From NCBI RefSeq assembly GCF_000004195.4, contig NC_030678.2:130973104-131037103 (forward strand): 64,000 nucleotides of DNA. Reading direction: 5' to 3'. Of the stretch, positions 11,653 to 51,740 are shown one piece after another. Made by a program: the position numbers and the translations under genes. The DNA comes from Xenopus tropicalis. Its lineage: Eukaryota; Chordata; Amphibia; Anura; Pipidae. Each line of letters starts with the position of its first letter. Position 1 is the first letter of the stretch. Under the pieces are notes generated by a model, which was not told the DNA's origin, did not search any database, and worked only from the letters and a program-made list of their open reading frames with translations.

Positions 11653-11660
11653 CTCTAGAT

Positions 11661-17167: not shown

Positions 17168-17200
17168 ATGAGACAGGGAAACAAGATTATATTACCAATA

Positions 17201-18664: not shown

Positions 18665-18837
18665 CTTGATCCAATGGTTGGCATTTTGCTGTAGTCGTTT
18701 TCATTTTAAGTGCTTCTCTAACAGACATGTCACAGCAGGATCCTTTATTAGTGTCCTGATCACTGTCAGCTTGATCACTATCCCCATGACCACTGTCTCG
18801 AAGGCTTGCCCTTTCTGGGTCTTTAAAAGTTGAGCTA
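18665..18837 (-). CDS. pcdh17: pcdh17 exon 3 (shared cytoplasmic exon)
   Basis: This is a 173-bp internal exon of protocadherin-17. The acceptor is a long T-run then TTAG (AG at 18838-18839) and the donor is AAG|GTGAGT (GT at 18663-18664). With the AG left from exon 2 it opens with Ser and reads SSSTFKDPERASLRDSGHGD, then an acidic Ser-Asp-Gln stretch, GSCCDMSVREALKMK and QPLDQ, and leaves one base (phase 1) for the next exon. The sequence is nearly identical to my recollection of the mammalian PCDH17 cytoplasmic tail, which settles the gene identity. The tail is cytosolic. Both ectodomain exons, 1A and 1B, would share it. The final exon lies outside the window. Confidence 0.95.
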
Positions 18838-18949
18838 CTAATATATTACAAAAAAAAAAGAGAGAAAAACAATCAAGTACAACATAAAACATTTTCTATA
18901 TATAGGAACACAAATGATAATGTATAGAACATTATTTTAAAAGGCTTAC
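18838..18949 (-). other. pcdh17 intron 2 (112 bp)
   Basis: A very short intron with donor AAAG|GTAAG and acceptor ATTAG, carrying a run of ten T's before the acceptor. The phase is 2 (codon AG|T, Ser). Confidence 0.92.
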
Positions 18950-19008
18950 CTTTGAACAAACTGCTGTCTGCTGCCCATGTAATTGGGCTCTGTGGGGAAA
19001 TTGTCTGT
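18950..19008 (-). CDS. pcdh17: pcdh17 exon 2 (59-bp shared exon)
   Basis: The acceptor is a strong T-rich tract ending ATTCACAG (AG at 19009-19010) and the donor is AAAG|GTAAG (GT at 18948-18949). It encodes TDNFPTEPNYMGSRQQFVQ plus two bases of the next codon. This matches the short segment that follows MSIIQ in protocadherin-17. It enters in phase 0, which fits the ends of both exon 1A and exon 1B. The exon is too short to stand out as an open frame and was found by reading for the conserved continuation of the cytoplasmic domain. Confidence 0.95.
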
Positions 19009-20101
19009 CTGTGAATGAAAAAGAAAAAATGATAATGTATAGCTGTTCACTGTACTAATATCCTACTGAGTAGCAACATCTCCTGGTGTATAAATGATTA
19101 ATAATCCAGATATTCACTTCATCATCAAATTTGTGCATTTTAATTAAATTGAAAAATTCTAGAATATAATCATGCCCTCGGGACTATTAAATGAATCTAG
19201 TGCACAAATTACCTGTTAAACAAATATTAAGCCTCAACCCAGTATTAGAATTGAAGAAGGCATTGTTTATGTTTTTTCATTAGTTCGTTATGGTGATTGA
19301 ATGTTTGCAGGAACAGAAAAAATTACCTGATGGCTGGGTATTACAGAGATGACTTAATATTGTTCATTTTTATTAATATGAGAAAATATTTAACTAAAAA
19401 TCTGGCATAGAAACCTTGGGGGAAGGGAAACAGGAAGCAAAACGCATTAACATTCAGCAATTCAAGTGACATGCATTTTTTATGAAGCAAACACCAATAC
19501 TGCACATATGGATAATTCCATTTTCATAATTAGATTTCTTCCATATTAATAGTTGTTGCTATGTAAAATCACTGTATGCAAACAATGATATTAATGACTG
19601 GAGTCACCAAGTGCAAGAGGAGGAAAAGCCATTTAATACAGCTTAAGCATTTTCAGCTCTCTGCGTGTGAAAAAGTCTTTTGTTTACTGCAATCAAAATC
19701 CCAGGGACCATTGCCAAATTTATCCAGAATCCCTTTGAGTGAAGCATAGATATTTTAGAGATATGGTGGAAATTAATACTGGGGAAAGGAAAGAGCAAGA
19801 TTATAAAGAACACAGCTTGTGTTCCATACATGCCTGTAGTCCTTGAAGATGAAATAATGACAAAGCCTCAACTGTTTGAGCATCATTTTGTACCACTCCA
19901 TCATGAAGTCTCAGCAACTCTCTTAAAACACTTAAGCTCCACTGAGAGAACACTTAATTAATGATGCAGAAAGCCTAAGGCAATGTTTAATCTTCCATAG
20001 CAAGTGTTTACACAAATGCTTAATCTTTAAAATCATGGTTTTCTCTATAAGATAAATTTTAATTAATCCTACCTTTGTTTGTACTTTAATAGGATTCGAA
20101 A

Positions 20102-20161
20102 TTATATATATATATATAGATATATAGATAGATAGATAGATAGATAGATTGATAGATAGAT
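20102..20161. repeat. (TA)n then (GATA)n microsatellite
   Basis: A TA tract passes into about ten GATA units with one substitution. Confidence 0.95.
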
Positions 20162-20497
20162 ATTATAAGAATGAGACTCAACTCAAAACAAGTTTACTCA
20201 AATTCAAATAGATAACTTCCTTTCAAAGTCATTATATGCATTATGGTTCCAGTTACATTTTATTCTACAATTAAAAAATATCTATGATGTTAACTGAAAC
20301 AAAGAGTATCACATAATAACATCAGCCTCTCAGCCTCTATGTATATATATATATAAATTTGATTTGGCTTTGAGCATTAAAAAGTACTTTATTATCATAC
20401 AATTTAAAAGGGTTTTAAAATGTTATCTTAAACAAGGCTTATATTATCTGATGAATTTTATCCAGCCCATTTAGTAAAAGCAACTAGATTTGGCCAT

Positions 20498-20521
20498 AGA
20501 TAGATAGATAGATAGATAGAT
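20498..20521. repeat. (GATA)n microsatellite
   Basis: About six GATA units. Confidence 0.95.
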
Positions 20522-23500
20522 ATACCAGAGCTGATACAAAACACAAAAAATACATTGTAATTACAACTATTTTTCAGCTGGGTACACTTGGGTAGTGTAA
20601 TGGCTAAATGGTCAAAAATTTTCCTACACAAAGTGGCCCAAACTGGACAAAAATGTCTAGACCTGGCCTTTATTGCTGTTATAATTACAAGATCATGAGA
20701 TTTAGTGATTTGCTGCATTCTGTTGAATACTGAATACATGTTCTAAGAAATAATTGTCTGCAAAAAACATAAGACCAGTTTTGCCCCAGCTTGGTTCAAT
20801 TTAATTAAATGAAATTTGATGTTTTTATGATCCAGATTTAAATACAGCTTTCTCCAAAAGCCCTGTGAGAATAAGTGAAGGACAGTAACAAGTTAATACA
20901 ATAGAATGATTAGCATTCTTTCAACAAATATTACTAATTTAACTAAACTACAATAAAACCCTTGTTTGTTTGTTAGAAGCAGTGGATTCAGAAACGCCTT
21001 AAAAAAATAGGAGAATAGTTTTATTTTATGCTCAGAAGTATCTTGTACTCTGGATGTGAGCATCCTAAACCTAACTATAATACATAACACTGTATAAAAA
21101 ATTATAGGTAGATGTAGGAGGTCAATAGGTGACATTTAAAGTAATATGGAAAGATTGGCAAAACTATTGATTAACAGGATGTATAACTTTTATTTGGTTG
21201 TTTAACTATGTATGCAAACAGATTAACTATTTTATATGTTACAGAAATAGGACACAATATTTATTTACTATTTAAGTTATTCTTTTATTCACCTGTAGGA
21301 AAAGTTAATAACATACTGTAGTAATTCATTATATGATGTTTACCTTTATGTTAGAATAAGACTCTTTATTTTGTGTGTAATTGAAACCTATTTCATTGTT
21401 GTGATATTTGATTAGGCAAAACTTTATTAAAAAATGGAATTTAAGTGCTTTATAGTTCTGTATCTATTGGGATGAACACTGAAATGCATTACATTATGCT
21501 TGTTTTGGCAAGTCAGTTCTAATGTGCTTTTCAATTTCCCTCAGCAGTTCTTCTGAGTATCAATATGCAAAGAGAATAATGAAACTAAATAAGCACAAGA
21601 GCACAAAACATTGCTTTTATGTGTGTATAAGTCAGATTTATGGGTCGTAACCATAAATATTTATAAGAGCCTCTGATTGTTGTGCCCCATAACTGTAAAT
21701 GCAGCAAGGACATATTTTTTCTAATTTTTAAAATATGGGATGGGTTAAAGTAAATACAGCCACATGACACACACACTATTTGCCAAATGGCCTCAAGATA
21801 AGCAAACAAAGTAAAAAGCAAAAAGTCCAACATTTATCATACTCAGAGGCTCAGAGGTCTTCCACTTAAATTCTCCCTTTACACATTCATACACAAATAA
21901 TCTATCCCACATTTTGGGTGACTGAATAAAAGAAAGAGAAAAAATGCCACAGCAGAATGGATACTATAAAGCAAAGTGCTAAACTTTACTAAGCAAACAC
22001 ATAGGCTAAAAAGGCTTAGTCCAGGATAAAGATTGTAGTTCTTTTTCAAAAATTTTGCATTTGTCTAATGCTAAAATGCATAATTAATTTCCAAAGACTA
22101 ATTATTTTCCATTTGTGGAAACCTAGTCTCTAAGAAAGAGTTACTGTATTTAGTTTTAGCCTGTCCAAAGCTGTTTAGCTATAACATGGTTTACCACCTC
22201 TTTAAGCCTACCTATTGTGTTATAATGCTAGATATGTGTATGGCCAGCAAAAGCCACAGTTTCAGACTGGTATGGATGCATCTCCCTTTCTGTCAAAGAG
22301 GTCTCACATTTGTTAAGAGTTGCCATAAACCCATACCAAAAGAGGGACTCTCGGGTAATTAGCTCAAATCAGCAGGAAACTCTTAAGGTATAGAGGTTCT
22401 CTATTCATATATCTACTATGTGCTTGTTTGAATTTTCTGTTGTGGGCATTTCTATTACACCTGCTGGGAGACAGAGGCCCCAAAGAAACACTATTTTAAG
22501 ATAACACAAGAACAAAACATTGTGGAAAATAACCAATTTTTACCGAATTTACTGGAAAATTGACAATGATCATGATGCAATAACCCTAGGCCACTAGAAG
22601 TTAAAGGAGCTGCTATCCTATCTGTCTCATCTGCTCTTGGAAGCAATATACCTAGCTATAATCATTCCCTCTTTATATTAAACAAGGAGATGCATGGCTT
22701 AAACTTACATTATTACAGATGTTTATTTTGTAGGTCTTGAGTAACTTATTCTTCCATGCATAACCAATTAATACAATATCTGCTACTACCAAGAGAAGTA
22801 AGAAGGATACTATTATGGGCATTTGTTGCACTTGATTACAAGATTAGTACTTATGGTAGACTATCTTAGTATCTGTGCAGCCATAATGCATACATCTACA
22901 TTTATTGGTTATTATCCAAGCTAGGGGTTAAAAAGATTTATTTAAATCAAATAAACAATTCCAAAACCAGATTAAAAAGCAATGACTCAATAAACAGTGG
23001 GGGCTAGAGTAGGTTGCTTAAATGCTGCAGTTCTCCCTACAGTGATTACAAATGCTAGTTTGCCATGGGCCTTAATAAAATGGAAAAATCATAAACAGTG
23101 ATATATCATTAATTAAAGAGAAAATCTTTTTTTATTGATTATGTGTTATTCTAAGAAAGAGTAGTAGGGTCAGACATATTTATAATATGTTTCATTTTCC
23201 TCTTTAGCAAAACAGTAATGTCTGCTATCATTGTTCTAAAATCAATCCTCTTTGCAAATATTGCCAAAATCTTGCTTTAAAAGCCTGTCCATAAAACCAC
23301 CTTGTTCCCTTTTTCTTGTCAGTTTAATACATTGGCATTTGTTAACTGCTATTTCTTGTCAATAAGGTGCATCCAAATCCTGTTAATGGGGAAGCATTGC
23401 TGATACATTATTTTTTAATGACTGAACAACTTCAAAGAGAAGGTAAAAAAAAAATGTGCTCTGATTCCCAGAATTTCAATATTATGTCTTAAATAACACA

Positions 23501-24983
23501 TTTTTAAGCTTCCATATTTTTCACTATGAGAATTTTACACAACAAGGCAGCATAACCACAGTTAGATAGTATTAACTCACACCCACTTATCACAACACGT
23601 TTCTCATTTGCTCTAAGAGGAACTGTAATTTAAGATGTCAGTTCACCTGTGTATTATATATTTGCCAAATACTAAGGGATTTGCATGACGTGTTCCACCT
23701 GTGATAGAGAGCATCTGTGCCATGCAAATAGTAGGTAATGAGAAGAGACATTATTAAATGCAAAGCAGAAAAAAATAAATGTTTCACTATTGATGAAATA
23801 CAGCTTCAAACACTCTTCACTATTTATTCTAACAGGTGTTAATATATTTATGAGTGATGGGTTGAGCATTTTGCCTAGCACACAAAAGTATTTTACCAAA
23901 TATATACTTTAAGTAATAACGATGGTGTTCACTTATAATGTACAAATGATTTTATAAATAAACCATTTAATATTATGAGGAAAAAAATCATTAAAAAAAG
24001 ACAAGAATGATACCTAAAGGTCAATGAATTAAAGCTCCAGTTTTTCTTTCTCTGAGCAGATGGGTGCAGTGAAACCTAATGATTGAATTTGAAACGCTTT
24101 AATGCACCTTTTATCAGCATCACCCACGCTGTTGGCATTCCTTAACACTACTAACAAAGATCATGTTTACAAGAATTAGCCAGCTGAAATGATATGTAAT
24201 ATGCTATTACACGTGGCTTATTAATACATAGACAGGAAAATAGGAAACATTTCTGGTAGGACTCAGTGAAGAATTAGAGAAAAGTAGTTTTACAGAGGAG
24301 ATGTATCAAATATTATCCTTATTATCCATTGGTATTCAGTGTTTTTGTTACTCTTTGAATATACACAAATCTTTTTTTAACAATGCACTGCTTTTTAACT
24401 ATATCAAACACAGTAAAATATAAGAAAAGTCAGAAAATCTTTCTAGTAAGTGTTTTCCTATTGCTTATTCCTGAAATACAAAAAGAAACAAGCATTAACT
24501 ACATTAATGCTTCTATGATTTAAAATCATACCTAGAAATATTTGACTATATCAGAAATAGCTGTAAAAATGGGGAAAACTTACTAAACAAAATTATTAAA
24601 AAAGAAAGATATGAGGTTTTGTACTACTAAGGGCAACACAAAAGGTGGCCTTATATCATGGCTGCAATAGAAACATAGTGCCAGCCTGAGTGTAGTCTTG
24701 TCAAGTTCTCTTTTATATTTAATTGTTTCCTACACATTGGTTGACTATATGTAAATAAATATTCAAACAACATATCCATAGTGGGTATAAGTAAACCAAA
24801 CTCAATAATCTTTTTCATGAAACTCGATGATCTTTTACTCATAAAACAGTAGTCTTTGCATTTTTCTAAGGGTTTCTAAGGGACTATTTTGCAACCATCA
24901 GCCCTGAATCAGTTGCTGAATCTCTCCCCGAAACAATCAACTCATAGAAAGCTACAGTAAAGCTCTACATTACAAACAAAGTA

Positions 24984-25292
24984 CAGGTATAGGACATGTT
25001 ATCCAGAATGCAAGGGACCTGGGGTTTTCAGGATAAGGGATCTTTCCATAATCTGGATCTCCATATTACTAAAAAAAATTATTTAAACATTAAATATACC
25101 CAGCAAGATTGTTTTGCCTCCAATAAGGATTAATTTAATCTTATTGATCTTAGTTTGGACCAAGTGCAAGGTAGTGTGTTATTATTACAGAGAAAAAGTA
25201 ATTCAAAAAAAAAAAAAAGGGGGGGGGTCTATTGGAGATGTTATTCTAAGCTTTCTGTATAATGTGTTTCTGGATAATGGTTCCTATACCTG
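24984..25292. mobile_element. CAGGTAT-type MITE, complete, TA-flanked
   Basis: It begins CAGGTATAGGACATGTTATC and ends GGTTCCTATACCTG, so the ends are inverted repeats, with TA on each side (24982-24983 and 25293-25294). A TA duplication suggests the Tc1/mariner superfamily, but I cannot confirm it. An A-run plus G-run lies inside at about 25206-25228. Confidence 0.8.
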
Positions 25293-27497
25293 TACATAAC
25301 TTCCAAACATCTGCACATGATTCAGACACACACACACAACATGTTCTGTCTTCATCTTCTGGTCCTTCTTCTTAATCTTTTCCCAACTCAGGCAAGAATT
25401 CTGAAGCTGGTTCCCAGCTTTGGGAACACATTTGGTTTGCATGTAAACCTGGTCAAACAAAACATGTTTTCTTTGAACCACATCACTTTTTATCATTTGC
25501 TGTCTTAGTATCTAATGTAAAGTGGCACTATACCTTTTGGTTATCGGAGCATATAGTCTAATGTAAACATATCCAATTGTTTACTGATAATAGACTAGAC
25601 CAATCCATAGAATACTACTATGTTAACATTCATTAATATTCATTAATACCATTACCCTTTTTACAGGCTTCCCAAAGTCTCCCATTTTTGCTCTTAGGTT
25701 ACAGCCACTACAATAGTATATTACATTATAAAAGTGACAAGTTGAAAACATTTTGTGGGAAGAAACTTTAGAGGATATCTATCTGTATCTGATATTGACC
25801 ACCTTACAGAAGTATAATATTGCATATATAATAATTTTTTTAAATGCTAAAAGGTCTGTTTCTTTATTTAAAAAAATACAGTAAAATGCAAGAATGCCAG
25901 TCGTCATTTTAATAACAATTTTACACTGTTATTTGGATGTTTTCTGTGAACATTTTTGCTGTACTCATATTGTCATTTTCTCCACTGTAATGACTAAGAG
26001 CTCAGGAGAGAACAAGAGAACACACAAGGTACTTTACAGCTTTAGCGATTTAATCTTGTTCATGATCATCAAAGCAGAACAGCCTTTATGATCTTCAAAT
26101 CTGCATATCAAATTACAGAAGATTTATGCAAAACTGTGAAAATGGTATCAAGTTTTTAGACATAAGGATTACTAAAATAGACTTCATATTTGATATCCAT
26201 TTTCAATACACCCTATTAAAATATTATTCACACAAGTAATTCTCTAGCACCAAAGATATTGGGTTAATATAGGGTGCTAGCATAGTTATTTATGTAAAAG
26301 CAATAATAAGTAAACAATGTGCTTACAAATTGTATAAAAAAAGTCCATTACCATACATTATAAAAAAAACAACATATTTACTAGTCTTCTCAAAGAAAAA
26401 TCCTATGTAACACAAATCTGTATAACTGAATTCAATGTTATTGAATAGTTCTTACGGTGATTCTATTCATAAGTGGTTGCTAAGCAATCAGTAATAATCT
26501 TGGTGGAAATATTGCATGTATAGACACTGATCGAATGCTCTGGTAAATAACAATGTTTACTTACAAGAAGAGATAACAGAAAAAAAACTAAGAAATCCAT
26601 TCAAAATGCAAGCTCTGTTTTAGCCAAGTATTGCAGCTCAACCTGCTAAGCAGTAATGATAGATTCAACTTAATAAAAATGTTATGTGAGTATAGTAAAA
26701 AAGTTAAAGATTGAATATGAAAAAAATTGTGATTTTTATATATTTTTTTTTAAATGCACCAAACTTTCCAGTCCCTTTAGAGGCTGATTATACACACACT
26801 TAAGATATTTTACCCATACAAAGACTACCAAGTCACTCCTAAAGGTATTAAGGGACCCTGTCATTATAATGCCACCTGGTAGAGTATTCCACAGCCTCAG
26901 TGATCTCACAGTAAACTAAAACTCTGGTCTTCATGTATAAAGGGAAAGCTTCTTGTTATTTGTTTTTTTTTCTGTGTCCCCCCCTGCTGTTCCTCTATAA
27001 TGCCTTTTAATGTAGTTGAATCAAATTCTCTCACTAGAGCCAATCCTCCAAAGAACATAAACAAAATGTTGATAGTCTTTTTTCTTGCTCCATTGCTTTT
27101 ACCAGTATAGCTGCATAGCTTTATATTTTTTCCAACTCATTAATATCCATCCTGTGATCTGGCCCACAAATTGCTCTGTATACTCAGGGTGGGTTAAATG
27201 ACACAACTACAAAAATGTTTTCCTAAACTATGTGTCATTTGTAGGCAGTAAGCTGTAAGATATTGTTATTACATCTTGTTTCTGTGGCATCTTTTTTTTA
27301 TACTACAATCCAATCCATTTATAGAACTCCACCTGTGAACCCCCTATTTTAGAAACCTATATTTTAAGTGTTTGCCTGCATTTTGGAACAAAAGAAATGT
27401 ATAGAAAGAAATTCAGAAAAATATGAGTCTTGATCAGTTACTACCCGTATTAACCAAAAACTACATTTTTGGAGGTTGTATTGTCTCTTAGGAATAT
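25293..27497. other. Intron sequence with one probable LINE tail
   Basis: Mostly AT-rich DNA with no gene. At about 26760-27130 a block with CCACCTGGTAGAGTATTCCA and CAGCCTCAGTGATCTCACAG resembles the 3' part of the CR1-like elements seen at 18427-18659. I regard it as a decayed LINE fragment. Confidence 0.45.
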
Positions 27498-27855
27498 GGG
27501 GCTGATTTACTAATCCACAAATCCGAATCCCGAATGGGAAAAAAATCGGATTGGAAACCAACATTTTGCGATTTTTTCGTATTTTTTGCGATTTTTTTCA
27601 TCACCGTTGCGACTTTTTCGTGAATTGTCACGACTTTTTCGTAGCCGTTGCAACTTGCACGAATTGTCGCGACTTTTTCATAGCCATTACGACTTTCGTG
27701 AATTGTCGCAAGTTTTTCATAGCCATTACAACTTTCGGAATTGTCGCAACTTTTTCGTATTGAGCGCTCAAAAAATTTGCCACAAAATACCGATCATTAC
27801 GAAAAAAACGCATTTGGATGCTTTTCGGACGTTCGTGGATTAGTAAATGTGCCCC
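27498..27855. mobile_element. GGGGCACATTTACTAA-type MITE with 3-bp duplication
   Basis: The left end is GGGGCTGATTTACTAATCCA and the right end is TTAGTAAATGTGCCCC. TAT stands on each side (27495-27497 and 27856-27858). The interior is a tandem of GCGACTTTTTCGTAGCCATT-like motifs. The sister copy at 60658-61226 has the same termini and a TGT duplication. The proteins rich in Phe, Arg and His predicted here are translations of this tandem repeat. Confidence 0.8.
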
Positions 27856-28369
27856 TATGTGTTATATACAGGGGTTCAGATTTGTTCAAAAGTTTCTTAT
27901 AGTAATTTAACAAAGTTTATTGCACACTTTACACTGAATGAATAACTTAAGAATATTTTTTAGATAAAATGTCACCTTATTTCAAAGTAATAAAACAGCT
28001 AAGAGATTCATTTTATGGATATGCATAAAGTATTTGGTAGTTGTTTGTGGTGGTTTATGTTGGGAATGTAAATTGCATAAATAGAGTTAAAGAAAAAAAA
28101 TATCATCACTAGATGATTGAATGAAAGTGTTCCACTTTAAATTGTTACTCTTTCTCCATACAAAGATACCATACCAATTTCATAGAAATCATGCATGGTA
28201 CATTTTTTAGAGACTGTACTAAACGTAATTAGGTTTATATAAAAACACTTAAAAACCCATTTTACAATAGTCAGGCAAATCAGGCAAGAAAAATCTAACA
28301 TGAAAAGAACATTGCTGTAAAGAATAAAACTTAATAAGGAGGTTTTTAGGCCTTTGATATTAGAGACAG

Positions 28370-28580
28370 GTAGTGATAAGCGAATCTGTCCCGTTTCGCT
28401 TCACTGGAAAATTTGCGAATCTTTGAAAAGATTTGCAAATTGGCAAAAATGGCGCGCGGCAAATTTTTCTGTGGCGAATTTTGGCATCCCTTATGTGAAA
28501 TAAAATCCGCCAACGCGGAAATTTGTGCCACAAATCCATGCATGGGGAATAATTTCGCTCAGAACTGAAGACAGGCACAT
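28370..28580. mobile_element. GTGATGAGC-type MITE copy (partial)
   Basis: It begins GTGATAAGCGAATCTGTCCC and continues with GTTTCGCTTCACTGGAAAAT, matching the terminal block of the copies at 28761, 51741 and 53637. The right terminus is diverged, with ATCCATGCATGGGG near its end. Confidence 0.65.
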
Positions 28581-28760
28581 TGGTTGATTGGTTGATGGAA
28601 GTAAGGAGAAGGCAGAGGCTTAAAGCTAATTCTCATTTTCAGATTAAACTGTTGAGTACCATTTTCAGGAAAGGTTCCTCTTTAGCATACTCGTTTTAAG
28701 AAACTTAGAAATGAGCACCTGGCTAAGTAGAAATTTTGAAAAAGACTAGAACATGTGAAT

Positions 28761-29300
28761 AGTGATGAGCAAATCTGTCCCGCTTAGCCATAAAATTGTC
28801 GAAACGACAATAAAATTCGTGAAACGCATTTATCGCACAAATTTTTTTTTGTCACCCGTGTCTTTTTTGTCGCTCGCGTCTTTTTTTGGTCACCCGCGTC
28901 TTTTTTTGACACGACCGCACAAATTATTTCATTACTGAACATATCTATTTCTCTTATATGAAGTGCACTGAACACCTTACAGCAGCTTGATTAATAAGGT
29001 TGCCAACTGTCCAGTAATACCATTCATTTATGAAGTGCAAAGCTGTTGATTGTCCTGTGAAAAAGGTATAGGTAACAGCTACTGCATCCATTTTTAATTA
29101 AAAAATGCATTAGTCATATATATGGCTGACTTTTTTGTCGGCCACGGGGTTTTTTTAGTTACATGCGCCTTTTTTTACGCAACTGCAATTTTTTTGCCGC
29201 AGTGAATTTTAGCAGAAGTTTCACAAAACAATTCACCAATGGTGAAATGCAGAAATTTGCTGCAAATCCATGCCTGCCGATAAAATTCGCTCATCCCTAG
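28761..29300. mobile_element. GTGATGAGC-type MITE, interrupted
   Basis: It starts AGTGATGAGCAAATCTGTCC (28761) and ends CCATGCCTGCCGATAAAATT then CGCTCATCCCT (29298). The middle has repeats of TTTTTTTGTCGCTCGCGTC type. About 180 bp of unrelated AT-rich sequence (around 28925-29125) splits it. Confidence 0.65.
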
Positions 29301-30172
29301 TTCATACCTGTCTGTATACAATGAATCAAGAGTTTATTAAACTTCAAGCAATATGCATTTATACAGTTTACTGTAGCTGCCATAATAATCATTTAAGCAA
29401 AGTGGTGTTTTAGCAGGTAATGTTTTGTGAACAAAAAAGCTTTTTGGCTAGCTAAGTGCAAAAGTTAGACGGTTATTTGTTAAGCTACAGTAAATGCTGA
29501 TCATGCCACTGCTAAAAGGAAACTCTCACCGACATTGATCAGCACTAGCAAAAGCTTAATGAATATTGTCTGCTTTGTATACATACTGTATATCTTAAAG
29601 TTACACCAATTGGCATGCTAAGAAGGAAATAAAAGTCAGCTTTCTTAATTTGATTTCAATATGCAGTGTTTACCTATTTCTATAACAAACAATTTTTATA
29701 ATTTTTAAATGTATAAGGAACAAATTTAAAGAAATTAATTATTAAAACGTTTGTTTAAAAATCACATATTCACTGCAGTTGTTTAAATATCTTCATCAGT
29801 ACATCTGTAGAATTATGTATTTTAAAGGACATGTAAAACCCCCACACAAAAATATAATCAGTGAACAACATCTCTGAAATCTTTAAATACCTGCCACTCT
29901 GGTTGTTCAAAGGTTAATAGTAAGGCTGTAGCATCCTCCTAATCACTTGGAATTCCTTTGTCTCCTACAACCCACTGTGCTTCCTCCCTCAGGATTTTAC
30001 TTTGGCTGTTGGCTACTGAGCATGTTCATTTCTTCTCAGATTACTACATGACATCCAGTGTAGCAGCCAATGAACAGATGGCATTGCTGCTTCCCATAGA
30101 AACTCTGATATAGCTGTCTGTTTTTATTTTTTTTTTCCTAACCTCCTGTCCTGAGCTGAGCTTAACCATTGC

Positions 30173-33489: not shown

Positions 33490-33807
33490 TAGTGATGGCG
33501 GAAAAAATCATCAGGCATGGATTTGCGGTGAATTTCCATGTCGTCATTGGTGGATTATTTTGCGAAACAGGCGAAAAAATTCACGTGTCCAAAAATTTTT
33601 TGTCTGCGTCAAAAGAATTGTGCATCAAAAATAATTGTCTCACTGGTCAAAAGAATTATCGTGCATCAAAAAGAATTGTCTCTCTCATCAAAAGAATTGT
33701 CTCTCACGCCAAACGATTTGTCGAAAGAAAAATTTCCGCCATTTTGCGAATCTGTTGAAAGATTTTCAAATTTTTTGGGCAAAATGGGACAGATTCAGTC
33801 ATCACTA
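33490..33807. mobile_element. GTGATGAGC-type MITE, inverted
   Basis: The left end is TAGTGATGGCGGAAAAAATC followed by AGGCATGGATTTGCGG. The right end is ATGGGACAGATTCAGTCATC then ACTA. This is the reverse orientation of the copy at 28761. The interior is a tandem of AAAAGAATTGTCTCTC-like units, which explains two overlapping frames of 88 and 129 codons here. Confidence 0.7.
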
Positions 33808-34708: not shown

Positions 34709-37180
34709 CTGAGATACTGGTGTCCAAGAGGAATTATTCTCAGTTGTGTTTCTAACTGGTTCTGAAAGACTGTGACATCCTATATTTGCTTGTGAAGAAG
34801 TCATAAGGTTGGATGTAGGCTTCAGGTACAGCACTTCTGAGTGGGAAGAGCTCAGAGGCAAACTGCTTTGATAATCAAAATACATTGGAGATGTAGCAAG
34901 GGATGGACTACTCACAACATTCATGGCATTTCGCTCTTCCACTTCACTCTGTACCAACATAATGTCATTCTTGTTTATTTTTTTCTTTTTTGTTTTCATT
35001 AATCGAGGTTGAATAGAATCTGCTATTCTGCCTTTGTAGGGCCTTACATCTTTATTTTCCTTCTTGCACTTTATAACTATGGTCACCATGGCAGCAAACA
35101 ATATTACAGAAATAGCACTTAATGTTACAATAACAGGTAGATATATATCCCAGTCCCTCTGCTCTTCAGTAATTTGTGTTTCTCCTTCAGGGAAAGAAAC
35201 CGTGTTTGTTTTAAGAATGATTTTTGCTACAGTTGAAAGTGATGGCTTACCATTATCTGTCACTCTGACTATTAGCTCTACTACTGGTGCAACTTCCTCC
35301 CAGTAAGGATGGAGAAGCTTAATATCTCCTGTTACTGAATCAATTTCAAAGAGATGCTCTTCATTCCCATGTATAATTTCATAAGTCAGTCGACCACTCT
35401 CTCCAAAATCAATATCCATTGCTCTAACTGTGCTTACAATATATCCCATGCCTATATTCCTGGGTACAAAAATCTCAGCCGTATCATTCTGTAAGTTAGG
35501 TAAAATAATGACGGGAGCATTATTATTGACATCCAGTATTGACACTCTTACTGTAGCATTGCTTTCTAAAACCGGAGAGCCTAAGTCTTGAGCAAGCACT
35601 GTAAATTCAAAATATTTTGTCAGTTCATAGTAATAAGTCCTCAGAGCATAGATTGCACCATTGATTGGATTGACAGATACATAAGTGTAGATTGAAACAC
35701 CATCAATATAGGATGGCAAGATTGAGTAAGAAACAGTGCCATTTTGCCCTAAATCTGGATCTTGTGCTAAGACAGAACCAAGATATTCTCCTGGGATGTT
35801 ATTTGCAGATACCTGCAGCACATACAAGAGTTTAGAGAAATGTGGGGGATTGTCATTAGCATCTAAGATCTTGACAACAAAAGATTTTGTAGAGTTTAAT
35901 GGTGGATTGCCATGATCCCTTGCAATTATAGTTACATTATACTCATCCTGCATTTCCCGATCAAGGGGTCTGTCTGTTAAAACAGTGTAGAAATTGTCAT
36001 AATTCTCTTCTAGCTTGAAAGGGACATTACCCTGAACCCAACAATGCAGTTGACCATTTTTTCCAGAATCCTTATCAGTAACTCGAACCAGTGCAATAAC
36101 TGTATCAGGAGGTGAAGCCTCACTAATTTCTCCCTGGCGGACTGATACAAAGTTTATTGATGGAACATTATCATTTATATCAGTAATTTTAACAGTCACT
36201 TTGCAGTGCACTGGTATAGAGTTGGGTCCTTGATCCTGGGCCTGAACATCAATCTCAATTATCCTGGTTTCTTCATAATCTAAATTACTCTTCACTTGTA
36301 TTAATCCAGTTTTTGCATCAATTGAAAACAGTTCCCAGACCCGGTCAGATGCATAGCCACTAAATGAATACAAAATATCTCCATTAGAGCCTTCGTCTAA
36401 ATCTGTAGCGTTCAGATCGATTACAACAGTGCCCAGTGGAGAATTTTCAGGGATTTCAACAGTGTAAGATTTAGCTTCAAAAACTGGGCTATTGTCATTG
36501 GAATCAATAACTTTAACATTTATTTGCAGAGTGGCTGACCTTGGAGGTTTACCTCCATCCAGGGCAGCAAGGATTAGTTTGTGGTGAGATTGTTCCTCTC
36601 TGTCTAATGATTTCTGGATAACTAGCTCAGGTATTTTTGTGCCATCACCTCGGGATTTTATATCCAAAGAAAACAAGTCAGTATCAGCTCGCTTCATGAC
36701 ATATGTCTGCAAACTGTTTTCTCCTAAATCTGGATCCTGTGCTGTTGAGAGAGGAAATCTAGTTCCAGGAGATGCATTTTCTGAAATCTCGAGATCAATT
36801 TGTTCAGTGGAAAAATAGGGTGAGTTATCATTTATGTCCATGATCTCCACTTTAATCATGCATATTTCTTTATCATTAACAAAAACTTCTAGGGACAGCA
36901 AGCACTTTGTATTTTTCCAGCAAAGGGTCTCCCGGTCAATACGCTGTTTGGTGTACAATAGCCCACTATTCTGGTCAACATCAATTAAGCTAGGAGCAGA
37001 ATTTTCCAACACCCTAAAATTGTTTTTTTCACCCATTCTTGGCAACTCAAGTTCTGCATCTATATTTATATTACCAATTAAGATCCTTGCCCCACTCTCT
37101 TCTAAAATAGAATAGTTTAACATTTTCAATGCTTGCCCAAAACCCCCAAGGGAGAAGAATATACACATAAGAAGGTACAT
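34709..37180 (-). CDS. pcdh17: pcdh17 alternative ectodomain exon (1B)
   Basis: This single 824-codon exon encodes a second protocadherin-17 ectodomain. The start is ATG at 37180, matching the MYL start of exon 1A; the open frame extends 12 codons upstream only to a TTG. Layout: signal peptide 1-18; six cadherin repeats with linker motifs DINDNSPYF (115), DSNDNSPVF (226), DINDNVPSI (334), DANDNPPHF (440) and the altered DVNNNAPVI (550); membrane segment about 681-704; then cytoplasmic KKKKINKNDIMLVQSEVEER. It aligns to exon 1A without gaps to residue 754, with about 76% identity over residues 1-700. It ends PVSQ with donor CAG|GTAGGT (GT at 34708-34707), phase 0, so it can join exon 2. Homophilic adhesion is known for the family; a distinct specificity is inference. 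A separate gene with its own tail is possible but no such exons were seen. Confidence 0.9.
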
Positions 37181-40100
37181 CCCAGAGAATGGATATATAC
37201 TTTGCTCCCTCACCAAAAGGTTGTAGTTTTATTAAAGATGAAAAAGAAGAGAATGCAGCAGGCAAAGACAGAAAGGTAGATATGACAATGGTGTGGGATA
37301 GACTTCAGTTTCTGAAGATATCATGTTTTCCTTTTTTCTTATTGTTTAAACAGATGATAATTATCTTCTTCGAAAATCAGACAGACTGCAGTCAGCATTT
37401 TCAATTCAGAGACAGTTTGTAAACAGTGGGAAATTTAGGTCCATCAACAACATAAGTAATACAGGAGGGTGGGAGAGACTGTTGGCTGTGTCCATAATTT
37501 AACTGAGAAAAAAAGAGCTTTTTTAACACATCCAGAGGAAGTAACAAGTTATGCTCTTTGAAAATAGTGCCTGCATTTACAAATCTAATGTAGATTGCTT
37601 GCCAGCTGTCTTCCCCAAAAACTGTCAATTTTATTTTGCTTCACATTATCTCTATTTACAAGCAGAAATTCATGAATATTAAATAATGCAGGGATTTGCA
37701 GAGTCTGGAAAAAATCCAAAAAGCAAGGAACCATCAAAGTTTATCATCAGTTGAAAAGTATTACAATCACAGCTTGGATTCAGTCATTTCACACATAGGC
37801 TTTTTTTCTGCAAGGGCAGTTGCCACATCAGCTTACAACTAACAATTGTATTCAGTTAAATTCCAGTTTTCTTTCTGGGACAAATCAACAGGCATGGCTC
37901 GATGCACAGATTATGGAGGGGGGGGGGCATTAATACTGGCGAGGAGAGAACAGTTGCTGCTTTCTTTGCTCCATTTTGTTAAATGATCCTCTTTTGTTTA
38001 TGCCAAACATAGCCTTCTTATCATTTCCTCTCTACGTTCTTCAGCCGACAATTGATTAAAAGAAAGACTGGAAGCAAGCACACCATATAAGCTCTGGAAA
38101 ATCCAAATATTAAACGGTTTGTCTGATTTAAGACTAGTTGTTTTTGTACAATGTCTACATGAGGTCAATTCCTACAAAGTCTTAAGCAGTGCACATTTTA
38201 AGAAGTGACTACATAACTTTGAAGATCCAAATGACAAGCACATGTTAAATTATAAAAATCACTGGATACTATATTCTGGTTTCCTTGAACATCACTTAAT
38301 AACAGCGTTTTCAAACAAAGCCAGCATCCACAAAGTTCATATACAGAAGGAAAACGCGCTTCACTTACTAAACATCTCCCACGTCTGGCTTTCCAGGCAA
38401 TTAGTATTATGCATGCTACATCTGGATTTCAGAGCCCCGCTATTCTGCTGAATGAGACATAAAATAGGTATTTGCTTCGGTTTTGAAGATGAAAAAGGCA
38501 GAATCAGTCTTACTTACTCTGGCGTTCTTGCAACAGAGATGCAGAGAAATTACAAAACAGAGCTATCCAGACAGTCCTAGGTGTTAATTACTGCTCTTCA
38601 GCTGTTACGCATGTAAATGCCAGTGATCTCGCATATAAATAATACATCAAAATCTCAGTAAGAAAAACAGGAGAATATTTCCAAATCAATGGGTGTGTTG
38701 ATTTCTCCCATCTGTTATATTTTTAAAGTCCTAGACAACGTAGTTGATTCTGCAATCTGCTGATGCCTTTGTATTTGCCTCTGCTGGTACTTCAGTGGTT
38801 CATTCACAGCGTTCAGCAGCATTTGCACGATAAATTAGGTTTGTTTAAAGGGATTTCACCAAAAGCTTAGCAACGTTTTGTCAGCTGCTAAAAATTCTAT
38901 AGTTTTGTGGTATCTTAAATCCTCTGATCCTCCATTTGCCATACGCCAACCTTCACTCTCAGTTCTTCTCTTTGACTGACTTAATTTCTGCTCTTTCCTT
39001 GTTTCTTTCTTTCTTTTTTTTTTCCACTTCTTTTAAGAAACTCAGCTTTAAGTCCAGCGTATTACTGCCACCTACTGGCATTTCCCTACTAATGCAGAGC
39101 TTTCATATTCCAAACCATATTGTACATCCTGTGTTTACTAAAATGCACCAAGCTTAATTTGGTCATAAATATATATAAACTATTGGTTATCGATGGTTCA
39201 TTAATGTCCTAATTACACTCTACAAGCTAATTATACTGGCTGTAAGGCTTAATTCATTCATTATCTTAATTAATGCAAACTATTCTTTTGTGCAACAAGG
39301 CCCAGTTAATTGCATTTACAATCCGATAACAATATGAGATATTTTTAGCTTTTATGCCATTCGTTATTTGAGCACTAAACAGTACAAGCTGGATCTATGG
39401 ACTGACTTCTATAAAAACACCCAAAAAGTCCCCTTGGAAAAAAATCAAGTTGCTAACAACATACATCACAGTTTAGTTATGTGTATGTATGTATTCATTT
39501 TAATACAATACAATGAAGAATACAAAAACAACAATATATGTTACAGTATGTAGGTTTTTTGTTTATGTATTGAGCACCTAAATTGATATTTTTATTGTGA
39601 CAATATATTATGTATTGTAAGACAATTTTCTCCTATGACAAAAATATTTATTTTCAAACAAAATATTTTAGCTTGCACGGTGTACATTTTCCAGCTAAAG
39701 CTCAGTTTAGATCAGGTAGAGCCAACCCTCAGCCTGCCAGCTGTTTAAGAGCTACAGTTTCAAGCAGACACCTTAGACACACAAAGCATTTTGATCTCAG
39801 CTACTGTGTTTTTATGCATTTTAAGGCAACACTTGTTACTTGTCATTGTAATTAACTATTTCTAGTGAGCGCTTTAACCACCGATACCAGGTAAAGGCAA
39901 TCAAATTGTCAAGTGTACAGTAACCCTTTTGAGATGGGTTGCTGGGAACTGTAGTTCAGAAGCTGCTGAAGGTCACAGATTGCAGAAACCTGTTTAATTT
40001 GACTTTTATCAAATAAAACTGCACTTTTGCCCAGAGCATGGGATTAGATCAATTCCAATTCCTAAGAGTAGTAACTGTTTAACCTCTGTAAATATAGAAG

Positions 40101-43100
40101 AAAATGTATTGTAAAGCCTGATAGATAACCTGCAGGCCTCTACAATAGAGAAATACCTGTATGTATATTATTGTATACACGCCTTGCTTCATGTTCTGTG
40201 TTTTAAGATGGTGGGTAAATAGTTAAAAAACATATAATTTCCATTTAAAGTTTAATGTACCATAACAAAATCTTACTGTCTTTGTAACCATACCATTTGG
40301 TATAATAATCAATGTAACCTGCAGATAAACCATATGTATCTTTCTAGTTATTGAAGTTAATCAACAGCTAGAAAGCAACTGGTCAGCTACCCTTGCATTA
40401 AAATATCATAACATTTTAAAGCCTGTTTTTTTTTTTTTAAATATTGTTGGAAAGGATTGTGCCTTACTGAATTAAGTTAAATATTATTTATGCAAATGTT
40501 CTGTTTTCTGCAGTGGGTATAAACAGCTTTCACTGACATGGTGAAAATAATGTCCACCAGTTACAGAGCTTTAGCATGTAGTGCTAGCATTTTGCTATGT
40601 AACAAACTAGATTTTCAGCTCAGAGGTTAAACTGGAACATGGAACACTGAGCATTACCTTACCAACTTCCACACATGACAGCCTTAAAATCTATGATTGC
40701 ATGCATAAGACAAAAAGAGATAGTAATGTCATCTATTTTACACTGAGCTGTTATTAAGTGCTAAAAAGGTTCTTAACCATTTCTGCTAGACAATTAAATG
40801 ACAAATGATAATGTCATTGTTGTGCCCTGGAAGCTTTTGTAGCAAGGCTCTCTCTGTTTCAGTTAACAGGAATACATGTTGACTGCAGGAAAGCAATTTC
40901 CAGCATATCGGTGCAATTCATAGAATCAAAATGGTTTATGGTGCTTGAAAAATGGCTGTGTTGCGTAACCTCCACCCCAAGAAAAAAATCCAGTTATGGA
41001 CTCAGTACACAAGCACCAACAGCAAAACATAAAAGAAATGCAGATTTTATTTATTTTATCTAAATCTGGTAACTTGTCTAAAAAAAAAGTACAACTACAG
41101 GGGTATAATTATTCTAGTATAGATAAGTATTACTTTCCTAAATTGTCTCTGTATAGACCAAATGTAATGTATTTGGCAGAAAAAAGCTGTAAAAAATAAG
41201 CAAGGAATTCCGAAAAATATTACAAAAAATATTACATATGTCATAATCATATGTTAGGAGTTAAAGCTCTGAATAAATAATAATCATGACTTTTCTAAGT
41301 AGTGATGAGCAGCTGAATGCAATTTAATTGGCAACACCATTTATGAAGCATCAAGGCAGAAACTTGTTATTACTGGTATATTTAACTTTTTAAGTATTAT
41401 TTCTGCCAGATAATTTAGATAAAGTGATCTAAACGGAATCTGTTGCCTTACATCTTAACTGGTGCAACCTTTAACATTATTTAAGCCTTTTGGCTGTCTG
41501 ATTTTACAGTCCTACACTTGGAACCAAACTGGTTAGAATAAAATTCAAGAAATATACAAATAAGCTAACAATATAAAAGTTAACACTGTAAGATACATAT
41601 AAACTATGCTTAAGTATTTAACATAAGGAATAAGGTTATTATCACAAGAGAATAACTGGTCCCCTGTATATATATATTTACTGTAATACTATATGTACTA
41701 GTGTTTTATTGATGAGGCAAAGAGAATATGTTAAAAGTAAACTATTCATGCTCAACATATAATTGCCATTATATAGTGCAGTGGCAGCTCCCACAAGTAA
41801 CAAACTAGACTTATGAAAAGATTTACTGTATATAAGTTGAGCCTTATGTGTTTTAAAACTATATGTTATTATCCATGTTATTATCCAAACTCTTCCACAC
41901 ATGTGTTTCCAAGCTTGGAAAACCTACATTTTAAAGGCTTACCTAGGCAATAATGTAACACCATGCCTTTAAGACCATACAGCCCCTTCCAAGTCTCCTT
42001 TCTAAACATATTTAGCAATAACATACAAAGCTGTCTCCACTTCTAATAAAAGGAAATTGGGTAAGAAGGCAAATATTATGTTATAGGTTTGGTGATCAAG
42101 TTGCATTGACTATATGTACAGGACCAGCTACAGGGAAATGACAATTATTAATTGACCTTAGTTGTTATATGTACATGTAAAAATATTTCCACTTAATAAC
42201 AAGGTCCTAGATTTTATTGCAGCTCTACTGCATTCAATCGTGTTTTGCCTGTTGTCTAAACACCCCATCCAGGTTACTGTGTTAATGGAACCTAAAATAA
42301 TGCATATTTATTATGTGTCCCTAAAAATCCCAAGAAAATTGTATTTAAATCTTTTTACAAAACATTAGTATTACAAACTGCCAGTTAAATATTAAAATAA
42401 ATAAATATGCACAGTAGCAATATTGAAATGTTATATCTAGCAATGAGTAAACTGATAGTTTATTGGTTTATTGTAAAAAAAAAAAAAGAAAACTATATAT
42501 ATATATATATATATATAGAAACACATACAAAAATAAACAAAAATACTGGCATTACAGCCATTTAGGACACATTACAATAATATTACTACCAAACTGGTCA
42601 ATAAAAATATTTTATAGTCGTATATACATATATGGGTCTGTGGGTAGGACATTCCTAGCATATGGTATGTATTTGGAATGTTTGGAGATTCAGTTTTACT
42701 GCACTGTATTGGAGACCAAAATCTAAAATTCCACAAACCAAAAAAAAGGCTAATTATTTTTAATATTACTTATCATGTGCATGCACACCTACTGATGAGC
42801 TTTATACAATTAAAATGACAAAATATATCAAACTACAAGTGAAGCACAGCCATTCAAAATAGCTGGCATGTAAGGACTGTAAAGAATGGGTTGCCCCAGA
42901 ATTTACATGCTGCTCTAATGCATGAGTAAGAGTAATGACGCCCTGGTTGATAATCAAGGAGCATGTATATTGACACCAATCGCTGACCTGTTAACTGTCC
43001 ATTACATTCAAATCTGAGGTGTTTGCAAAACAGGCATAGCACACACAGTACTAGATTAATACACTGAGTTATAATGTTTACACATACAGGGAAGTACATC

Positions 43101-44685
43101 ATGAAGGTAATGCATCACCATCAGTCCAGCCATAACTCTCAGCATAAGGATCAATAACACCAATAAGTCACAAATCCCATATCTTGGATTAAATTAATAA
43201 GTGAGCAGAAAGTCAATGAATATGCACAGTCTTTGATGTAAAAAACGTGATTTGTGTTTGCACTGAAATCTATACTGGGTGCTTACATCTCTGACTTCTG
43301 CAGTCTAAGTAGCATAGCATAGATCTTTAACACACTTCTGCACTAATGAAGTGCAGTCTACATACATAGAATTTTGCTCTGACAGTTCAGAGGGGAGATA
43401 CATAACATCCATCTATGGCTAAATTTGATTTGCCTTCATTTTTGTACAACAGAGTAAGTGGATAATAAATAATTTTAACTATCTACAGTATGTGGAATAA
43501 AAGAGATATGCATAGCATAGCTATTCTCCTCCTTGATACTTATATCATAAAGCCCCACAAGACATTTGAAAAGGAAAGAAAAGTATTATAAATTATTAAT
43601 AGAGACTTATGTAAATAACAGTACACTTGAGATTCTGCTGCAGAGCTAGAAACATGGCATTTTGCATGTAACATAAGGGAACTGGATGTCCTAAAAGCCT
43701 GTAAATGTTAAAATCAATAGATTTGGGGAGGGGGTGGATGGACCTTGGCAAGAGACTGTGATAATGTGATTGACTCCAACATGTAAAAATGTCTCTGAAT
43801 GCTTGAGAGCCATGTTCTAGCAGACATATGTAACCTGAAACCAGACAAATTACAAATGTCTTGACTGCATATCCACCCATATCCACCACGTAATGGCTCA
43901 GTAATTAAAATAATTGTACTGAATCAAGACTAGCACCAAAAATGTTAAATGCCTATGACAGCTAGAATAAACAGGACTGTCAGTTATCAGCCAATCACTA
44001 TTGCCAGCCAGACTCAGACAGGGTTTTTGTTAGTACAATATGGAATTACATTCAAATAAGCATACAATATCTAACCTTAGTCAAATGATTGTTATTTTTG
44101 TCTGTGCAGTAGGAAATTAAATACAAGGGAACTGGCATTGGACACAGCTGCAGGAATAAAAAAAAAACCCTATCCAGTAAGCTTAAAAATACCATAGCTT
44201 TTCACAACACATGCCTCTAAATGCTTAGACTTTCACCTTCAAAAAATGAAATGTCATGGTCTCTGTGGTTTACAAAGTAATATGTTGTTTACTTGTAGCA
44301 GGCATCAGTAATGAGAACTTGAAAATCAATGACCAACACAACATTAATAACCCTTCCATAACCTACTAATTAATGAACATACTTTTAAAATGAATCATTA
44401 AGGTACATTTCACCATGCTCAGTCAACTATAGATTTGGTTTTCCAAATAAGAAAGTAAAACCTGTATTATATGTAAATATAGGTTAAAAAAAATGGCTCA
44501 AACTACCAACCCCCAATTAAATAAAAAAAAAAATTAAAGTCTTAGTTAAAAATGTGATACTTGAATTTTCATTTTATAAATATTGTGTTCATCTAAAAAG
44601 GTTTCCCTTAGAAGTGATCTGGATGACATAACAATAATTAAAAGAGCAGTTTACTATTTATAAAAGCATTTGAAAGATGTCATAC
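37181..44685. other. Interval between exons 1A and 1B; 5' region of 1B
   Basis: No other exon was found. Just upstream of the 1B ATG, the minus strand reads GGGAGCAAAG, then TCTCTGGG before ATG. Exon 1A has GGGAAGCAAA and TATCTGGGG at similar places, so the duplication seems to include a little of the 5' leader. I cannot identify a promoter for 1B. The region to about 39000 is less repeat-rich than the surroundings. It contains a G-run (37917-37927), a poly-T tract (39001-39025), a TGGGAACTGTAGTTC motif (39949-39963), an A-run plus (AT)n at 42476-42518, and the A-run at 44522. Confidence 0.5.
42493..42518. repeat. (AT)n microsatellite
   Basis: A short TA tract after an A-run. Confidence 0.9.
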
Positions 44686-47163
44686 CTGAATTATAGACAT
44701 CCGATTTGCCTCAGTAGAATTGTTCACTGGACCAGTAAAACTGTTTTGGCATCCAACATGGCCTTGAGGAACAGTCAGATTATTTGATGTAGGCTTCAGG
44801 TACATCACTTCTGAACGTGGAGAACTAAGAGGCAACCTGGTTTGGTAATCAAAATACATTGGTGATGTTGCAAGTGATGGACTGCTTACAACATTCATGA
44901 CATTCATGGCATTTCTCTCCTCCACTTCACTTTGCACAAGCATAATGTCATTCTTGTTAATTTTTTTCTTCTTACTTTTTCCTAATTGAGGGTGGCTGTA
45001 CTCTGCAATTCTGCAGTTATAAGTTCTGATTTCCTTGTTTTCTCTCTTACACTTGACAACGATTGTGATCATTGCAGCCAGAAGAATGATTGAGATTGTG
45101 CTCAGTGTAACTATAAGGGGCAAAGACATATCCCACTGGTTCTGTTTTCCATTTACTCTAGGCTCACCTTCAGGTAGAGACCCAGTGTAAGATTTTATGA
45201 TGAGCTTGGCCACAGCTGAAAGTGATGGTTTACCATTATCAGTCACTTTGATCACAAGCTCTACTACTGGAGAAACTTCATCCCAATATGGAGTAAGTGT
45301 TTTGATCTCTCCTGTCACTGAATCTATTTCAAAGAGGTGATCTTCATTGCCATAAACAATTTCATATGTCAGTCTTCCACTTTCTCCAAAGTCATTGTCC
45401 ATTGCTCTGACTGTGGTGATAAGATACCCCACACCAACATTTCTAGGTACATGGATTTCTGCTGTATCATTTTGTAAAGTGGGCAAACAAATTACTGGTG
45501 CATTGTCATTAACATCCAGTACACTGACCCTCACAGTAGCATTACTTTCTAAATGAGGGGATCCTGAATCTTTTGCAAGGACTTTAAATTCAAAATATTT
45601 TGTTTGCTCATAATTGAAGGATCGAAGAGCGTAGATTGCACCATTAGTAGGATTGACAGAGACAAAAGTGTAAATTGACACATCGCCAACATGGGATGGC
45701 AATATTGAGTAAGACACAGTACCATTATGTCCCAAGTCTGGATCTTGTGCCAGGACAGAGCCCAAGTATTCCCCTGGAATGTTATTTTCGGATACTTGCA
45801 ATACATACATAGCTTTGGTGAAGTGGGGAGGGTTATCATTTTCATCTAAAATTTTAACGGAAAAAGATTTTGTGGAGTTCAATGGTGGACTGCCATTATC
45901 CCTGGCGATTATAGTTACATTATATTCATCCTGTATTTCACGATCAAGAGGTCTGTCTGTTACAACTGTATATAAATTATCATAATTTTCTTCTAGTTTG
46001 AAAGGCACATTACCAAGAACCCGGCATATTAACTGTCCATTTTTACCTGAATCCTTGTCAGTGACCCGGACTAAGGCAATAACTGTGCCAGGGGGTGCAG
46101 CTTCGCTAATTGCTCCCTGGCGTACTGATACAAAACTAATAGATGGAGCATTATCATTCTTGTCAATTACTTTAACAGTAACTTTGCAGTGTTTAGGGAT
46201 AGGATTTGGGCCTTGATCACGTGCTTGTACATCAATTTCAATCAGTCCATTTTCCTCATAGTCTAAATTGCCTTTAACTTGAATTATGCCTGTTTTGGAG
46301 TCAATTGAGAAAAGCTCCCGTATTCTGTCAGGGGCATAGCCACTAAAGGAATACACCACCTCCCCATTAGAACCTTCATCTGCATCGGTGGCATTTAGAT
46401 CAATCACAATTCTACCTAACGGTGAGTTTTCTGGTATTTCCACCATATAAGAAAGTGCCTCAAAAACAGGGCTATTGTCATTGGAATCAATTACTTTGAC
46501 ATTTATTTGAATGGTGGCTGATCTGGGAGGATCACCTCCATCCAATGCTGTCAAAATGAGTTTATGATGGCTTTGTTCTTCTCTATCCAGTTCTTTTTGA
46601 ATGACTAACTCAGGAAACTTAGTTCCATCACCTCTGGATTTCACATCTAGGGAAAACAAACCAAAATCATCACGTGTTATCACATAGGTTTTTAGGCCAT
46701 TTTCACCAGCATCAGGATCATGGGCACTGGTAAGTGGAAATCTTGTTCCAGGAGATGCATTTTCTGAAATATCTATGTCGATTTGCTCAGATGGGAAGTT
46801 GGGGGAATTATCATTGATGTCCAGAATATCGACTTTGATCATACATATTTCCTTATCATTAGCAAATACCTCCAAGGAAAGTTGACATTTTGGACTTCTC
46901 CGGCAAAGGGATTCACGGTCAATCCGTTGTTTAGTGTACAAAACCCCACTATCCTGATCCACATCCAGTAAGTGTGGTGCAGAATTTTCCAGAACTCTGA
47001 AGTTCGATTTTCTTCCCCTCTCTGGAATTCCAAGCTTTGCATCTTTGCTTATATTGCCTATGAGAGTTCCAGCTCCCACCTCATCTGGCACAGAATAATT
47101 TAAGTTTTTTAAAGTCAGGGCGGGTGCCCATAAAAATAACAGCAACAAGATAGAAAGGTACAT
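44686..47163 (-). CDS. pcdh17: pcdh17 principal ectodomain exon (1A)
   Basis: This 826-codon exon encodes the protocadherin-17 ectodomain, membrane segment and first cytoplasmic block. It opens MYLSILLLLFLWAPALTLKN, close to my recollection of mammalian PCDH17. Layout: signal peptide 1-17; six cadherin repeats with linkers DINDNSPNF (115), DSNDNSPVF (226), DKNDNAPSI (334), DENDNPPHF (440) and DVNDNAPVI (550); RGD at 177-179; membrane segment about 681-704; cytoplasmic KKKKINKNDIMLVQSEVEER (731-750) and ending RMSIIQ. The donor is CAG|GTATGA (GT at 44685-44684), phase 0, joining TDNFP in exon 2. Family members are homophilic adhesion proteins of neurons and embryonic tissue acting at cell contacts. 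Retention of the intron would add one Val before a stop. The ATG at 47163 is followed at once by a hydrophobic leader. Confidence 0.97.
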
Positions 47164-51739: not shown

Positions 51740-51740
51740 T

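Follow-up and report, generated by a model that had tools for sequence, protein, structure and literature searches.

Can a protocadherin gene outside the clustered families supply two different ectodomains for one cytoplasmic tail? The question is raised by the Xenopus tropicalis gene for protocadherin-17 (pcdh17), an adhesion protein of nerve cells. The gene lies on the minus strand of a 64,000-nt stretch of contig NC_030678.2 (assembly GCF_000004195.4, positions 130,973,104 to 131,037,103; hereafter the window, with positions counted from its first letter). Here, two large ectodomain exons, 1A and 1B, precede a single set of tail exons. We consider it likely that pcdh17, a delta-2 protocadherin gene, is a locus with two variable first exons, in which a tandem duplicate arose on the frog stem and either exon 1 joins the shared tail.

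Exon 1A (44686-47163, minus strand, 2478 nt) has the form of the usual pcdh17 ectodomain exon, and exon 1B (34709-37180, minus strand, 2472 nt) is its tandem duplicate, located 7.5 kb downstream in minus-strand order and followed by exon 2, exon 3, and a cassette exon. Each copy is free of stop codons, ends in phase 0 at its donor (CAG/GTATGA for 1A and CAG/GTAGGT for 1B), and encodes a signal peptide, six extracellular cadherin repeats (EC1-6), a membrane segment, and a proximal cytoplasmic block. The signal peptide and membrane segment were assessed by eye, and Pfam recognized five Cadherin domains and one Cadherin_2 domain in each exon, giving the six repeats. The two proteins are identical at 619 of 822 aligned residues (75%). 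Exons were mapped by a tblastn search of the window with two X. laevis pcdh17 models, which matched the two ectodomain exons, a single exon 2, a single exon 3, and one 63-nt cassette exon. Neither a third ectodomain exon nor a second copy of any tail exon was found in the window by this search (remaining matches had E ≥ 5), and the last coding exon of pcdh17 was likewise not found within the 64 kb. The open frames, Pfam domains, and tblastn matches confirm what a first-pass annotation had described from the sequence, namely two complete copies of exon 1 on the minus strand with phase-0 donors, upstream of lone exons 2 and 3. The layout is that of tandem variable exons on one strand upstream of shared constant exons, and it follows the PCDH17 exon plan, in which the six cadherin repeats lie within a single large exon and small cytoplasmic exons come after it. 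Among the 3354 GT sites of the minus strand, the donor of 1B ranks 8th and that of 1A 37th, and exon 2, exon 3, and the cassette exon have donors ranking 10th, 3rd, and 2nd, respectively.

The best solved-structure match of both exons is PCDH17 (6vft; E 8e-232 for 1A and 5e-203 for 1B), which ranks above PCDH10, PCDH19, and the clustered protocadherins, and the clustered chains score lower than the EC1-4 structures of PCDH17, PCDH10, and PCDH19. The protein matches used throughout are the best 120 rows from 8000 candidates, with each entry representing a 90% cluster; most named entries among these 120 are protocadherin-17, and some carry the automatic UniProt name Protocadherin beta-1. Window 1A shares 97-98% of its residues with X. 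laevis 1A models and falls just outside the X. laevis L/S pair in our tree (98/83), a position that most likely belongs to the X. tropicalis side of the genus; judged by sequence, it is the ordinary pcdh17 exon. Window 1B is 95% identical over its full length to X. laevis ‘protocadherin-17 isoform X4’, and 1B isoforms are already in public annotation as numbered predictions.

The shared tail begins with exon 2 (18950-19008, minus strand, 59 nt), which starts TDNFPTEPNYMGS, and continues with exon 3 (18665-18837, or with its start at 18834; minus strand, 173 or 170 nt), whose tandem acceptor TAGTAG yields SSST or SST. A cassette exon (4242-4304, minus strand, 63 nt; DPCCKKIDRCNTKSVCKTVCT) was not listed in the first-pass annotation. 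The reading frames are compatible throughout, from the phase-0 first exons through the 59-nt exon 2 to either form of exon 3, and the cassette preserves the phase. Of the models checked, SSST is found in 10 of 12 for 1B and four of six for frog 1A, with SST in the others, and the cassette exon is present in four of the 12 1B models and all six frog 1A models.

Among the matches listed, there are 13 entries of 1B type (P0001-P0007, P0012-P0016, and P0022) from 12 named frog species: Xenopus laevis, Ascaphus truei, Pelobates fuscus, Leptobrachium leishanense, Pseudophryne corroboree, Spea bombifrons, Bombina bombina, Nanorana parkeri, Lithobates pipiens, Aquarana catesbeiana, Pyxicephalus adspersus, and Rana temporaria. 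The search for a second exon in other frogs, which the first-pass annotation had proposed, therefore had a positive outcome. All 13 entries carry the motif DVNNN, and window 1B outscores window 1A for all of them except P0002 of Ascaphus, which was assigned to 1B by the tree. In 12 of the 13 (11 of the 12 species), the model continues into TDNF, the start of exon 2, and 11 reach the common C-terminus VRK; of the remaining two, P0014 (Aquarana) includes the cassette and has a different end, and P0002 ends just beyond the donor. In Ascaphus, 1A and 1B are separate predicted proteins with the consecutive tags FKM82_009155 and FKM82_009156, as expected for neighboring exons.

The tails of 1A and 1B models from the same species are identical wherever they align, at 324 of 324 positions in X. 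laevis (P0001 for 1B and P0019 for 1A) and in Pelobates fuscus, and at 304 of 304 in Leptobrachium and Aquarana. The gap columns in these pairs (one each in X. laevis and Pelobates fuscus, 21 each in Leptobrachium and Aquarana) match in size the single residue gained or lost at the tandem acceptor and the 21 residues of the cassette. Between species, tail identity is 293/324, 291/303, and 289/303, and the tails of X. laevis S 1B and L 1A agree at 299 of 317 positions. In the predicted gene models of all four species compared, each variable exon is accordingly joined to the same constant exons. The earlier proposal of two proteins with different ectodomains and the same intracellular tail holds for the distal tail in these gene models but not for the proximal cytoplasmic part; the common tail starts only at exon 2, and before it 1A and 1B each contribute their own, differing membrane segment and about 120 residues of proximal cytoplasmic sequence.

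When the second exon arose was addressed with a maximum-likelihood tree (36 rows, 828 columns) that comprised 13 1B rows, 10 frog 1A rows, one caecilian, four amniotes, coelacanth, lungfish, and six ray-finned fishes. The 1B rows (support 100/100) and the 1A rows (100/97) form two sister clades with a joint support of 100/98, and the caecilian, amniotes, coelacanth, lungfish, and ray-finned fishes all fall outside the pair. Ascaphus branches first in both clades, with support of 100/99 for the rest of 1B and 92/89 for the rest of 1A. A duplication deeper than frogs was rejected under the model used: setting 1A and the caecilian apart from 1B was 28 log units worse (approximately unbiased [AU] test, p 0.0105), and setting 1A, the caecilian, and the four amniotes apart from 1B was 25 log units worse (AU p 0.0007), with the groups in both constraints named after the tree had been seen. 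The caecilian clusters with the amniotes, contrary to the accepted species tree, and this node is noisy. Most likely, the exon was duplicated once on the stem lineage of frogs, earlier than the oldest split among living frogs, which is about 200 million years old. Since no salamander is among the matches listed, the duplication may somewhat predate frogs. For Discoglossus, Pelodytes, Rhinophrynus, and Pelobates cultripes, those matches include only 1A rows, which is no sign of a loss of 1B.

The only strong nucleotide alignment between the two copies pairs 47112-44710 with 37129-34739, within the exons, and nothing better than E 0.004 over at most 22 bases was found in the flanks. The borders of the original duplication are thus lost. 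An origin of 1B as a retrocopy was rejected, as the likeness stops at the exon end, where a donor is present instead of a fused exon 2.

Exon 1B has been retained under purifying selection. Between window 1A and 1B, synonymous divergence (dS) is 1.87, which is near saturation, nonsynonymous divergence (dN) is 0.15, and dN/dS is 0.08 (Nei-Gojobori, own script), and the differences amount to 18%, 11%, and 49% at codon positions 1, 2, and 3. Exon 1B has nonetheless evolved about four times faster than 1A, with 0.20 (in Ascaphus) to 0.45 changes per site accumulated after the two separated, compared to 0.04-0.13 for 1A, and a rate ratio of 3.5-4.7 in the five genera having both. In these genera, the variability of 1B relative to 1A is 1.3-2.6 times in EC1-EC6, and rises to 6 times in the juxtamembrane part, 18 times in the membrane segment, and 8.5 times in the proximal cytoplasmic part; the recognition part of 1B is thus more constrained than its membrane-proximal part. 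Identity between the window copies is 72%, 80%, 78%, 87%, 81%, and 76% from EC1 to EC6, and 40%, 77%, and 67% in the juxtamembrane, membrane, and proximal cytoplasmic parts. The variable proximal cytoplasmic part of 1B directly precedes the well-conserved shared tail.

There are 18 1B-specific columns, in which all 10 1A rows and at least 12 of the 13 other vertebrates share one residue and 12 or more of the 13 1B rows share another. They are enriched in EC5 (7 of 75 eligible columns versus 11 of 435 elsewhere; Fisher p 0.009 for a repeat chosen post hoc). One replacement, D553N, is common to 13 of 13 1B rows and turns DVNDN, the calcium motif preceding EC6, into DVNNN. For the adhesion surface itself, the five interface sites whose mutations are discussed for PCDH19 (PMC5115871) were mapped by hand on the alignment and are the same in window 1A and 1B; across the 13 1B rows, the only departure is an E-to-D change at one site of one row. 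When EC1-4 are removed, Pcdh17 is reported to support no adhesion (PMC6326727). The unchanged sites, together with this requirement, suggest that the EC1-4 type of trans interface is probably retained in both 1A and 1B.

The choice between the two exons would be made either by promoter or by splicing. No acceptor with a score of at least 7 was found within 3.3 kb upstream of 1B, and upstream of 1A there are two acceptor-like sites of this score within 3.3 kb and four within 5.8 kb; this score is insensitive, ranking the real acceptor of exon 3 about 1120th of 3724 and that of the cassette about 378th. CpG is slightly raised at 38001-39000. A candidate CTCF core match lies at 39066-39078 (minus strand, in gene orientation), 1.9 kb upstream of the 1B start codon, and is the only exact match in the window, where 0.02 would be expected and 2 of 100 shuffles had one, figures that apply to a match noticed post hoc. 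The lack of an acceptor at 1B, the raised CpG, and the CTCF-core match are hints that favor separate promoters for 1A and 1B over a choice by splicing. A CpG-rich segment at 51001-52000 was rejected as a promoter island of 1A, being rich in GCGAAC and resembling a dispersed repeat by eye. In the same upstream region, 3 kb from 1A, is a tandem array of about 11 copies of a 62-nt unit (50078-50764).

The proposed history and use of the locus can be stated as follows. On the frog stem, the entire first exon of pcdh17 would have been copied in tandem between exon 1 and exon 2, and because the copy kept its phase-0 donor and lies upstream of the only tail exons, it would have been usable as an alternative first exon. 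Transcripts would begin, by promoter choice, upstream of 1A or in the interval that separates it from 1B, and each exon 1 would be spliced to exon 2. A cell could then display PCDH17-A, PCDH17-B, or both, and different recognition surfaces and membrane-proximal segments would feed the same distal cytoplasmic tail. More tentatively, frogs may have independently started a protocadherin cluster, that is, a two-letter PCDH17 code with own, possibly CTCF-linked, promoters and a homophilic specificity for each letter, which would have been maintained from before the divergence of living frogs; this is quite possible, and we favor it less than the two-member locus itself.

Several points weigh against a two-member locus used in this way. 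All joins of 1B to the tail come from predicted gene models, and the models of Ascaphus (P0002 for 1B and P0011 for 1A) and Pelodytes (P0008 for 1A) end at the exon-1 donor. The acceptor score misses real sites, which leaves room for a 5′ noncoding exon ahead of either copy, and no CpG-rich stretch adjoins 1A or 1B. Moreover, the 8.5-fold variability of the proximal cytoplasmic part of 1B (34709-35070, minus strand) could mean a partial loss of function there. If one promoter with a 5′ noncoding exon served both copies, 1A and 1B would be mutually exclusive internal exons chosen by splicing of the Dscam type, an arrangement that would suit the acceptor-like sites upstream of 1A; the missing acceptor at 1B and the hints of a 1B promoter at 38001-39000 and 39066 count against it, although weakly, and we regard it as rather unlikely.

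It is considerably less probable that 1B mainly encodes a single-exon protein, read through its donor into a short private tail, with the joined models reflecting a habit of annotation. The beta protocadherins, which are tail-less, would be a parallel, and the three models from Ascaphus and Pelodytes that stop just past the exon-1 donor agree with such a protein, but the donor of 1B has a high score, and 12 of 13 1B models among the matches listed join the tail in frame. In addition, the read-through tails in the window are dissimilar, reaching a stop after 1 residue in 1A and after 26 in 1B. The faster change of 1B might suggest a decaying duplicate, but the ectodomain is open in 13 frog rows, including Ascaphus, and the dN/dS of 0.08 and the excess of differences at codon position 3 are those of a maintained coding exon; an assembly artefact is excluded by the presence of 1B in the 12 named species, and we give practically no credence to either origin.

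The two-member locus has counterparts in other gene families. As in the alpha and gamma clustered protocadherins, a variable exon encodes EC1-6, a membrane segment, and a short cytoplasmic part, and is arranged in tandem before shared constant exons (PMC4978886), so the likeness drawn in the first-pass annotation holds for the arrangement. The same source gives X. tropicalis 14 alpha, 46 gamma1, and 36 gamma2 protocadherins, commonly with a conserved sequence element (CSE) whose CGCT box precedes the start codon by about 200 bp, an element that some clustered genes are without. Unlike these clusters, pcdh17 has two variable exons, is a non-clustered delta-2 gene, and has no CGCT box near 200 bp upstream of 1A or 1B, the nearest CGCT/AGCG being 869 bp (1A) and 1127 bp (1B) away. 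Exon 1B is sister to frog 1A (100/98, in a tree without clustered rows) and is not a descendant of the alpha/beta/gamma clade. On the basis of these sequence comparisons, the resemblance is one of convergent layout and not of shared descent.

Tandem first exons with shared constant exons are also found in GCNT2 and UGT1. GCNT2 has two variable exons in frog, as pcdh17 does, and in chicken, three in human, mouse, and rat, and one in zebrafish, and in the three mammals each variable exon of UGT1 and GCNT2 has its own promoter (PMC1885805). These genes encode enzymes, whereas pcdh17 encodes an adhesion receptor and its 1B promoter is putative. The frog locus also resembles the Dscam arrays of insects and chelicerates, in which duplicated exons supply alternative recognition domains of one gene, but those arrays are larger, arthropod, and of the immunoglobulin superfamily. 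Exon 1A and the tail are like those of ordinary PCDH17. According to PMC7339444, which also names the CM1 and CM2 motifs for the delta-2 cytoplasmic part, isoforms of delta protocadherins have identical extracellular and different cytoplasmic domains; frog pcdh17 would be the reverse, with differing extracellular domains and a common distal tail.

No description of a second pcdh17 ectodomain exon was found in the literature searched, which included few subscription journals, in agreement with the first-pass annotation, whose author knew of none, and a term search of the X. tropicalis cluster paper (PMC4978886) gave no mention of pcdh17. The locus would show, at its smallest size, the variable-plus-constant layout to which the clustered protocadherins owe their diversity, although only one ectodomain has been described for each relative of this gene, and offers a datable and testable case of how such loci arise, in a laboratory animal. 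In practice, a Xenopus pcdh17 knockdown or knockout directed at 1A would spare the 1B protein, and probes for the tail would report both.

The introns and flanks contain several repeats. A non-LTR (long terminal repeat) retrotransposon lies in the intron between exon 3 and the cassette exon (14658-17191, minus strand), with an open reading frame for reverse transcriptase (Pfam RVT_1) and an upstream open reading frame with a weak endonuclease match below the cut-off. An inverted repeat at 10815-14161, with arms of 102-270 nt that are 88-90% complementary, resembles a DNA transposon and has a 34-nt tandem array inside it (13521-13792). Finally, a near-perfect hairpin is located at 58793-59044, with 124-nt arms that are 98% complementary and separated by a 4-nt spacer.

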